A stretch of 64,000 nucleotides of DNA from Erpobdella octoculata (Eukaryota > Annelida > Clitellata > Hirudinida > Erpobdellidae), in the NCBI GenBank assembly GCA_963978895.1, contig OZ022242.1, positions 11,593,941 to 11,657,940 of the forward strand. Direction: 5' to 3'. This document shows, piece by piece, positions 29,913 through 33,047 of this stretch (positions are counted from its first letter, which is position 1; each line of letters begins with the position of its first letter). The notes beneath the pieces were generated by a model. It saw only the letters and a program-made list of their open reading frames with translations, was not told where the DNA came from and did not search any database. Both the position numbers and the translations under genes were made by a program.

Positions 29913-32900
29913 ATGGAGGAGGACAAGGTTGAGAGAAAACGTCGACTACAAAGAGAACGATCTGCAAGATTTAGAGCGCGACAAAATGCAGGAAATTTAG
30001 AGCGTTTAAGAAATGAAAATCGTGAAAGGAGAGCGCCGAGTCTCAGATTTGAAACAGCAGAGCAAAGACGAGTCCGTCTTGATGCAATTGCCACAAGGAT
30101 TGCCACACATCGAATCAGTGAGACGATTAAGAAAGCCCTGCCTTGTCTCGAGGGTGAGGTAGATTATGGAATTGATGAAGCAATACAGGAGGTTCTTTTT
30201 TGTTCTTATATATAACTAAACTATATATATATATATATATATATATATATATATATATATATATATATATATATATATATATATATATATATATATATAT
30301 ATATATATATATATATATATATATATATAGAATGAGAAAATATATAATTAAGAGATAATTATCTCTTAATTATTCATATTTTAGAAAACTAAGCGTATAT
30401 GTTTTCGGAAGGCATTTTTGATATGCAAATTCTTAGGTAGCGACCCCTAAAACATAATTTATTCAACTAAACTTTTCAGAACATTTATATTCTCATAAAT
30501 GTCAACCATTTGAGAGGGTACCCTGCCATAAATTTTTTTGGCCTTATAAGGACCACACTATCTTGGTTGTTTTTATAATGGCTCCATAAGTGAATAAGTA
30601 ATAAGTAATGGGGAAGTTTTTTTTTAACATTGTAATGTCAATATAGTAGTCTCAGGCGGACTGTGATAGTTGATAATAAAGTTGATTTATAAGATTGACA
30701 ATGACGATAAAATAACTTAAATTATTTCATCTTAGAAAGAAAGTGATACATTGCAAGAAGATGAAGAAGAAGTTGTACATATAAAAGAAGAAAGATCAAA
30801 CTCTCCATGTCTTCCTTCCACATCATTTCGGGATCACACCACCATGGAAACACAATGTTATAATAGTTTACCACGATCAACTACAAACTCAACCAATCCG
30901 ATCGACTCAGAGTTTGGATTCCAGGGCTTTCCCAGAATTAAAATGGAAAATGAAGATTTTGCTGTGCTAGACAGTAGATGTGGTACAACAGTTTCAACTT
31001 CATCTAGTCTTCAGTCGCAGAGCAGTTCAACTAGATCTTTAGTAAGACTAAATTGTAATGAAGAGAATTCTATTTGTGAGGATCATAACGACAGTATGAC
31101 CGATCCTGACAAATATTCCAGACTGATTGTGATTGCTCCTTTTAATCCTCAGAATGAACCGAAAGATGCGGATTATTCATCTCGTTTGTCGACGTCCCCA
31201 TCCAGCGGCCAATGCAATAATTTTCAGAGTACTTTCAACTCGCAGTCTTCCTTCGAGGGACAAAACACATCAAGTCCTGAGATAAAAAATGAGCCTCTAG
31301 AAACAATTGAGGATCAGATTGGGCAAGGACTGGTGTCGAATCAATCGCTACAGTTGCCTCGATCATTACTCTCAGACTCTTTGAGTTATCCTAATTTTTT
31401 TACTGATTTACATTCCATAATTCCTACAGTTGGGAATCAAAGGTCCTTTCTAGAAATAGCTTTTCATCACATGCTGGGTGTTGCAGAAGCTCCAGAGGAG
31501 AGAAAACAACGATTAACAAGGGAAAGAATAGCTTGGTGGAAAGCCAATTTAGACCAAGAAACCATCAATCAATTATGGTTAGAAAGTCGAGAGAGGGTGA
31601 CAAATAGTGAAATGCTATTTGTTGAGGAAACACGCGAAGAAAGAAAACGGCGATTGACCAGAGAAAGAGTGGCTCGGTGGAGAGCTAATCTAGATAAAAA
31701 AACGATAGACCGGTTGAAGTCAGAAAATCGGGAAAGAATAGCCAAATGCCGCACGAAGCCAGAAACACCAGAGGAGAGGCAAGCTCGTCTTGATGCAGAT
31801 GCTAAGAGGAAGGCTGAACATCGCAAGCAGGAAACACCGGAACAGCGCCGTGCCAGACTTGATGCAGATGCCAGAAGGATGGCACTTCGTCGCATGAAAT
31901 TAACACCAGATGAACTGCAAGCCCGCCGAAAGGAAAATGCAAGGTGGGTTGCCAACCGTCGCAAAAATGAAACGCCAGAAGAAAGGCGCGCCAGACTCGA
32001 TGCAAACGCTCGGTGGCAGGCCAATCGAAGAAAAAATGAAACGCCAGAACAAAGAATGGCTCGTCTTGAAGCTGATGCCAAGAGGATTGCCATTCGTCGA
32101 AGGCGCGAAAAGCTTGAAGAGGCTAAATCTGTTTTTGCTGTAAATGCCTAACTTTTTTTTATGTTATATGATATCGTAAAGTGTAAAAATTTTAAAAATG
32201 TGTCTAGTAGTTCTTTCAGCATTCAATTTTATATATATATATATCATCACAGTTATCTATTTGTAAAATGTGTTCTTCAACGTTTTGCTAGTGCTGAATA
32301 TTTTTGTGTTTTGAGCTCCAAGTCATGCTATGATGTGGAATTTGGAGCAAAATTTTACATAGATGCCCTTTCTGAAGACTTCTCTTTAATTGCCATTTAT
32401 TGGTTCTGATATTTTTCTCAACTAGGAATCCAATGGGTCACTCCAGTGATATGAGTGTAAACTCTATACTGTTGATGATGACAGTGATTGGTTTTATTTT
32501 TTAGGGTTCAGAAAGTGCGTTACCGCCGGCCGAAGATCACATCTCTACAAGAGCACAAAAAGCGCATTTAAAAACTGCTTTTTCCATCCCTGATCCTAAA
32601 CTATCATCATCTTCAATGGTTCCTGGAGTTCAGTCTAATAGGGATCAAACTGAACCCACTGGTTTTTCTGAAGTTAAAATAGAAGATGAAAATTCCTCTT
32701 TTCTGGGAAGTGTATTTAGCGACTCAGTTTCTGCCACATCCAATTTACATTCGTTAAACATTGAATTTTTGTCCGAAGAAGAAGGCGGACAGTTGTCAAA
32801 TTGGGGCTCACCGAACTATTCTGATGCGAAAGAACGGCAACGAGCTGATGAAACTGCGAGCACATTGTTCTGCCTGAGAGAGAACGTGCTGAAACTTTTG

Positions 32901-33047
32901 AGAAAGGTGATCCCACACTGCCCAGTTTTTCAATCAGCGGAACAAGTGCCCCTCGAGTCTGTTGATAAAATCTTGGAAGAACTTTTGGCAAATATGAACA
33001 GTGGTTCTCAAAAAATGCAACCTTTGATTTCAATTCCTGATGTTTGA
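29913..33047 (+). CDS. STPR-repeat DNA-binding protein with a MORC-type C-terminal domain, 3 coding exons, 741 aa
   Basis: Proposed exons are 29913-30191, 30736-32139 and 32505-33047, all phase 0 with GT-AG borders. The first exon is preceded by a plausible acceptor at 29908-29909, so a 5' exon may exist. Residues about 436-550 are five consecutive 23-residue repeats of the form ETPEERRARLDANAR..., the STPR fold known from silkworm FMBP-1, which binds DNA. Upstream are three copies of a roughly 38-residue basic motif (ERKRRLTRERVARWRAN type), one in exon 1 and two in exon 2. A long Ser-rich, acidic linker carries SUMO-acceptor-like motifs (IKEE, IKME, IKNE, VKIE). The last exon ends with a block ([18 protein letters not shown]) nearly the same as the end of the MORC gene 22 kb downstream. 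If the exon 2 donor at 32140 is not used, the protein stops at 32151 and the last exon belongs elsewhere. Nuclear location is inferred. Confidence 0.78.
30222..30329. repeat. (TA)n microsatellite
   Basis: Pure TA array in the first intron of the STPR gene, followed by a 26-bp perfect palindrome aattaagagataa/ttatctcttaatt at about 30345-30370. Confidence 0.95.
31762..32106 (+). repeat. Five tandem 69-bp units encoding STPR repeats
   Basis: Units lie at 31762-31830, 31831-31899, 31900-31968, 31969-32037 and 32038-32106. Each is exactly 23 codons, beginning ETPEER/ETPEQR (LTPDEL in the third). The exact 23-residue period matches the score-and-three-amino-acid repeat. Conserved positions are the Thr-Pro start, the Arg-Leu near position 9 and the basic tail. 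DNA binding is a family property, not shown here. Confidence 0.9.

Follow-up and report, generated by a model that had tools for sequence, protein, structure and literature searches.

Three open frames on the + strand at 29.9-33.05 kb of the window, by which we mean the whole 64 kb stretch of DNA that was analysed, are compatible with a single gene. Exon 1 (29913..30158) is a basic coding exon that opens at the ATG at 29913 and contains an ERKRRLxRER lead-in together with one regular STPR unit. Its donor GAG/GTAGAT at 30159, which like all splice sites discussed here was scored with generic position frequencies not trained on this species, lies in the 96th percentile of all GT dinucleotides in the window and leaves the exon in phase 0; an alternative end at 30191, also in phase 0, has the donor GAG/GTTCTT at 30192 (65th percentile). 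Exon 2 (30736..32139, + strand), which is delimited by its open reading frame and matched by Pfam STPRs, encodes an acidic and Ser-rich region followed by an array of STPR units. Unspliced, its frame runs to a stop codon at 32151; spliced, it is cut at 32139 in phase 0. The proposed phase-0 intron (32140..32504), with a weak donor and a strong acceptor, leads to exon 3 (32505..33047), a 180-codon frame that starts at the AG acceptor and ends in TGA at 33045-33047. The joined three-exon product would comprise 730 or 741 residues, depending on the exon 1 end that is used.

Exon 3 stays open for its 180 codons, which none of 20,000 mononucleotide shuffles did. Codon scores are positive for exons 1 to 3, according to a model that was trained on the exons of the neighbouring MORC gene and that tells reading frames apart poorly: for the N-terminal part of exon 3 it gives 0.334 in frame and 0.418 for one reverse frame with 4 stops. 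The negative codon scores of both STPR introns arise by construction, as these introns were in the background set of the model. A motif count finds SUMO-type psi-K-x-E motifs three times in exon 2 and a fourth time in exon 3. The total of four [VI]KxE motifs was matched by 2 of 5000 shuffles, in a count made after the motifs had been noticed. The segment of exon 3 that precedes its C-terminal block is probably disordered.

The STPR array consists of five in-register units of 23 residues (31762..32106, + strand), each of which has an acidic residue at position 4 and an Arg at position 9. The first-pass annotation, made from the sequence alone, had described five exact repeats in exon 2; they are indeed exact in length and register, whereas their sequences are not identical. 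The Pfam family PF21107 (STPRs) matches exon 2 in three stretches with 28.5 bits, against a cut-off of 27, and units further upstream in the array are degenerate. A sixth unit, absent from the first-pass annotation, lies in exon 1 (30051..30119, + strand), where it is matched with an E value of 4.3e-5 by a profile of the five exon 2 units; outside exons 1 and 2, the best open reading frame reaches only E 1.5 with the same profile. Position 4 is acidic in all six regular units (Glu in five, Asp in one) and position 9 is Arg, in a residue numbering that assumes the register of PMC4821344. In the silkworm protein FMBP-1, Glu 4 and Arg 9 form a salt bridge within each repeat, and this bridge is important for the rigid conformation of the DNA-bound protein (PMC4821344). 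FMBP-1 has 218 residues and four repeats, and it binds AT-rich DNA with the motif ATNTWTNTA (PMC4821344). We have counted the presence of the acid 4-Arg 9 pattern in 6 of 6 units in favour of the reading preferred below, with the register assumed. By the two features tested, tandem units and the residues at positions 4 and 9, the predicted gene product is an STPR protein, and by analogy with FMBP-1 its array may be expected to bind AT-rich DNA. Two further points concern exon 2. A strong phase-2 donor, AAG/GTGGGT, lies at 31944 in the third unit (99.7th percentile), and its use would truncate the array; joining it to exon 3 was considered and rejected, as the phase-2 reading (followed by hand) reaches a stop after 22 codons. 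Relatives of exon 2 were also sought in viral contigs, where none of seven pattern matches was confirmed.

Approximately 22 kb downstream, on the same strand, lies a MORC3-type gene (43194..55522, + strand). The model starts at the first ATPase exon that was recognised, ends with the last exon (54578-55522) and is incomplete at the 5' end and in some of the middle exons. The ATPase and S5 exons of this gene were recognised by tblastn, and the CW exon by Pfam. Its last exon contains four tandem copies of a seven-residue unit at 54840-54923, EPSRVIA (EPSRVIV in the last copy), which is probably a coding minisatellite. In the exons of the STPR gene, Pfam (E up to 1) finds no ATPase, S5 or CW domain and returns STPRs only; hence, the product of this gene is not a MORC protein. 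Searches by tblastn with seven MORC proteins revealed no other MORC-like stretch near the STPR gene or elsewhere in the window.

What connects the two genes is a C-terminal block. The end of exon 3 (32844..33017, + strand) had been said to match the end of the downstream MORC protein closely, and it does: the two blocks (55332..55505, + strand, in the MORC gene) share 52% identity over 58 residues, with a BLASTP E value of 1e-14 in this single comparison, and the match is strongest around an 11-residue stretch. The accompanying statement that vertebrate MORC3 ends in a similar segment is also right. A profile built from 13 MORC3 tails of other animals, containing no sequences from the window, was searched against the 1092 six-frame open reading frames of at least 30 amino acids in the window. 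Only the two that contain these blocks matched, with E values of 2.9e-6 and 1.8e-5, the latter being the tail of the STPR gene, and the next-best open reading frame had an E value of 3. The match of the STPR tail to the MORC3 profile ends 11 residues before the stop codon.

We have also looked at how widespread this block is, using a hand-joined translation of the neighbouring MORC gene as query against 5.8 billion proteins. The search returned 1610 matches at E 1e-3 or better, and the best 120 of these 1610 are mostly named MORC3 and come from molluscs, Lingula and vertebrates. Among these best 120, the block is present in 105 (i-E <1e-3), which include mammals and oysters and of which 13 had been used to build the tail profile; in 102 of the 105 carriers it lies at most 15 residues from the C-terminus. 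The 15 of the 120 proteins without the block include P0004 (Biomphalaria), the best-scoring MORC match, and P0071 (Physella). The block spans about 50 residues with a pattern of roughly L..LR.NV..LL..I.P, a loop, and then.D.I....I/V, and the STPR-gene tail keeps its core hydrophobic positions. No family in the copy of Pfam that was searched matches the block in the proteins scanned. This negative result applies to that copy, as some MORC proteins are annotated with newer Pfam accessions, namely PF28159 in the eel proteins P0039, P0045 and P0048, and PF27881 and PF28019 in the Patella protein P0038.

AlphaFold2, run on a 33-row alignment (A2), predicts two helices, the first of them long, connected by a loop, i.e. 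a hairpin. The best ten-residue blocks of the monomer have pLDDT values of 76 and 81, the mean pLDDT is 65.7 and the pTM is 0.40, so that the model is usable as a statement about secondary structure only. A search of the PDB with the single tail sequence gave no match. With the whole alignment A2, MORC3 chains matched in the ATPase and CW regions only (profile positions up to 457 of 840), and among the best 60 of 72 matches, each taken with its best stretch, a small number of unrelated chains, helical or designed, reach into tail positions with E values of 0.16 or worse. The MORC3 structures found span the ATPase and CW domains, and none of them covers the tail.

With respect to the origin of the STPR tail, the first-pass annotation had proposed that the MORC 3' end was duplicated locally. 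A tree was computed from 32 tails (56 columns, and hence indicative only); in it, the two tails of the window are sisters (0.979), with the MORC3 of Elysia placed next to the pair (0.971). The branch leading to the STPR copy measures 0.93 and that leading to the MORC copy has almost no length. Since nearly all branch length of the pair is on the STPR tail, MORC looks like the donor, and this tree thus favours a transfer in the direction from MORC to STPR. A tree of the MORC core gives a different picture from that of the tails, as the window sequence there has a long branch and groups with a JGI sequence (0.72), close to Lingula. At the DNA level, similarity between the two tail exons is confined to 127 coding bases and does not extend to the flanks, and BLASTP aligned nothing else of weight between them. 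Moreover, the intron that precedes STPR exon 3 is in phase 0 and the one that precedes the last MORC exon (54578) is in phase 2. On account of the short DNA similarity and the differing intron phases, we rejected a whole-exon duplication of the MORC 3' end. The source that had been proposed is therefore likely to be right, the tail being MORC3-derived and closest to the neighbouring MORC among the tails compared, whereas the idea that the 3' end or last exon was simply copied is not supported as it stands. Over 58 codons, two methods give a dN between the tails of 0.39-0.40 and a dS of 0.82-1.22. As dN is below dS, the protein sequence appears to have been constrained on one or both branches, and a dS of about 0.8-1.2 suggests that the acquisition of the tail is an old event.

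A dispersed repeat of about 160-270 bp, whose copies are 76-92% alike, occurs at 9195-9466 (-), 27517-27722 (+), 29280-29504 (+), 33115-33371 (+) and 56145-56309 (+), with strands given relative to the copy at 29280. Direct copies flank the STPR gene, and the copy at 56145 lies 0.6 kb downstream of the MORC gene. We considered whether the copies that follow exon 3 (33115) and MORC (56145) are traces of a duplicated block, and rejected this view because at least five copies are present in the window, in both orientations, and because no convincing similarity was seen between the stop codon and the repeat. Other features of the window are a fragment of a hAT transposase at 24308-25156, with a Dimer_Tnp_hAT domain, and a 1009-codon open frame at 13482-16508, which by eye resembles a LINE-type endonuclease/reverse transcriptase and has a 300-codon frame just before it.

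Whether STPR array and MORC3-type tail belong to one protein depends on the splice between 32139 and 32505. The first-pass annotation had proposed a phase-0 junction, and the arithmetic is right. However, the donor, GCT/GTAAAT at 32140, is weak: its score is -1.96, in the 81st percentile of all GT dinucleotides in the window, and 3 of the 9 donors assigned in the MORC gene score below it. The acceptor at 32505 lies in the 96th percentile. One base after the exon 3 stop codon there is, in addition, a very strong donor, GAG/GTAAGA (33049..33050, + strand), in the 99.8th percentile; including itself, only six sites on the + strand of the 64 kb score as high. This donor had been missed in the earlier annotation and came as a surprise. 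It points either to a 3' UTR intron or to exon 3 being part of a longer or different transcript, and the gene model may thus be incomplete at its 3' end.

These observations bear on the alternative that there are two units, with the STPR protein ending at 32151 and the 32505-33048 exon belonging to another transcript. The latter might be a short gene that starts at an in-frame ATG (SSSSMVPG), or else an internal exon with a splice at either end, and the tail would in that case be a small protein that binds MORC3 or competes with it. The weak donor at 32140 with a stop codon four codons further on, and the flanking of exon 3 by the acceptor at 32505 and the donor at 33049 in the manner of an internal exon, speak for two units and were counted against a single gene. 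Against two units, the stop of the STPR frame and exon 3 are on the same strand, 353 bp apart and in compatible phase, the frame is open exactly from the acceptor, and exons 2 and 3 share the psi-K-x-E type of motif. There is also no AATAAA or ATTAAA between 32152 and 33047. Both signals are likewise absent from 452 of 1273 windows of 353 bp and from 90 of 1263 windows of 896 bp, and the missing poly(A) signal is therefore weak evidence for one gene. The phase, the strong acceptor, the 180 open codons, the codon scores, the shared motif and, with this reservation, the absence of a poly(A) signal were counted for a single gene. Taken together, they make the join plausible, not proven, from the sequence, and we consider the existence of two separate units somewhat unlikely.

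The reading that we prefer is that of a real gene with at least three coding exons, whose product is an STPR factor with a MORC3 tail that pairs with MORC3 and directs silencing; we would give it a little less than an even chance of being right. What we observe are the two conserved sequence modules and the open frames; what we infer are the joining splice, the binding of DNA by the STPR-tail protein, the pairing of the tails and the silencing. According to the preferred reading, the basic block and STPR unit of exon 1, the acidic and Ser-rich linker with its SUMO-type motifs, the five-unit array and the MORC3 hairpin would form one protein, with the hairpin as an old acquisition from the MORC3 gene 22 kb downstream. 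The array would find AT-rich sites in the DNA, and the hairpin would pack with the hairpin of identical type in MORC3. MORC3 would then be brought to the STPR sites, along with its ATPase and the partners that depend on SUMO, and compact them. The SUMO-type motifs and MORC3's own hairpin would make the STPR factor a direct bridge to MORC3. Known properties of MORC3 provide the background to this scheme: MORC3 homodimerises via its coiled-coil and ATPase domains and has been likened to a molecular clamp (PMC8627505), it silences endogenous retroviruses together with Daxx in a SUMO-dependent manner, and SUMOylation of Morc3 is required for its contact with Daxx (PMC8516933).

In favour of this preferred reading we have counted that the tail homology is specific within the window, that dN is below dS, that the core positions are kept and that a hairpin is predicted; against it, that searches of limited sensitivity found the fusion in no other species and that the AlphaFold2 monomer model has a pTM of 0.40 and a mean pLDDT of 65.7. 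A single protein could also exist in which the tail only mediates self-dimerisation of the STPR factor, or blocks MORC3 pairing as a decoy, with no recruitment. A short hairpin predicted with moderate monomer confidence is what might fit such a pairing element, and the tails, having diverged to 52% identity, could have changed partner; we nevertheless think this unlikely, as the core positions remain compatible and the two tails match best around the 11-residue stretch referred to above. Finally, exon 3 might be what is left of a decaying extra MORC copy, encoding no functional protein. This would agree with the tail being the only recognisable part (nothing else similar to MORC came up nearby when seven MORC proteins were used in tblastn), and is made very improbable by the 180 stop-free codons (0 of 20,000 shuffles), the dN below dS, the conserved core positions and the strong acceptor.

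The window is rich in the motif that FMBP-1 recognises. ATNTWTNTA occurs at 937 positions on either strand, 767 of them in 16 clusters of at least 5 sites, and 30 sequences generated by a first-order Markov model contain on average about 95 sites and 0.03 clusters. One cluster, of 100 overlapping matches, coincides with the (AT)n tract in intron 1 of the STPR gene (30222..30329). It should be noted that the clusters are mostly simple AT-rich microsatellites, and that the motif is that of the silkworm protein, from which the specificity of the STPR protein described here may differ. That these clusters are targets of the STPR protein is an idea drawn by analogy, and not evidence. KRAB zinc-finger proteins are repressors in which DNA-binding repeats are joined to a piece that recruits silencing. 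By extension, the gene described here might encode a lophotrochozoan counterpart of the KRAB repressors, in which the STPR array delivers MORC3 silencing to AT-rich tandem repeats, including the (AT)n tract in its own intron 1; we put this forward as a doubtful proposal, rather unlikely to hold as it stands. If true, it would provide a built-in answer to the question of how MORC3 is recruited to homotypic motif clusters, and the unnamed MORC3 hairpin would be a portable recruiting module.

The remark in the first-pass annotation that no described STPR-MORC fusion is known agrees with our searches: two protein searches gave none, and no paper in the collection searched has both STPR and MORC as whole words. 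Within the limited sensitivity of the protein searches, which score only relatives that share exact five-residue words, no other species was found to have STPR and a MORC tail in one protein. In one fusion search, the 7995 candidates sharing most words were scored; the other yielded 34 candidates, none at E 10 or better. Irrespective of the fusion, the finding draws attention to the C-terminal module of about 50 residues of MORC3. If the two parts are joined, the protein could bring the MORC3 silencing machine to chosen DNA sites.

In comparison with known systems, the protein shares with FMBP-1 of the silkworm and human ZNF821 the tandem 23-residue STPR units with an acidic position 4 and an Arg at position 9, and differs from them by a large linker with SUMO motifs and by the MORC3-type end. 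Neither FMBP-1 nor ZNF821 is known to carry a MORC tail. With MORC3, an ATPase of the GHKL-S5-CW type, it has the last 50-60 residues in common, whereas the ATPase, S5 and CW domains are absent from the exons of the STPR gene. The logic of a repeat array that binds DNA joined to a recruiter of a silencing complex is the same as that of the KRAB-type repressors, which is a likeness in mode and not membership of that class, as the recruiting piece would here be the MORC3 hairpin and not KRAB. A possible precedent for the joining of an STPR-like array to a silencing domain is the frog protein P0003 (Discoglossus pictus), which has a KRAB box followed by an STPR-like array. That array aligns to the STPR array described here with 41% over 182 aa and has no Pfam STPRs match at E 0.01; in the database search, P0003 was a marginal match (E 8.8e-4). 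A functional parallel concerns human monocytes, where, according to a 2026 paper, PU.1 brings MORC3 to a tandem-repeat enhancer that contains clusters of PU.1 motifs (PMC13373173). The authors leave open whether the PU.1-MORC3 link is a direct contact or a common mechanism, with SUMO as a speculation (PMC13373173). A natural fusion would make an open question, namely the way in which transcription factors guide MORC3 to particular DNA sites, testable with two small parts. In both systems a sequence-specific factor would bring MORC3 to clustered sites, with SUMO implicated; in contrast to the case of PU.1, the STPR protein itself would contain the link to MORC3.
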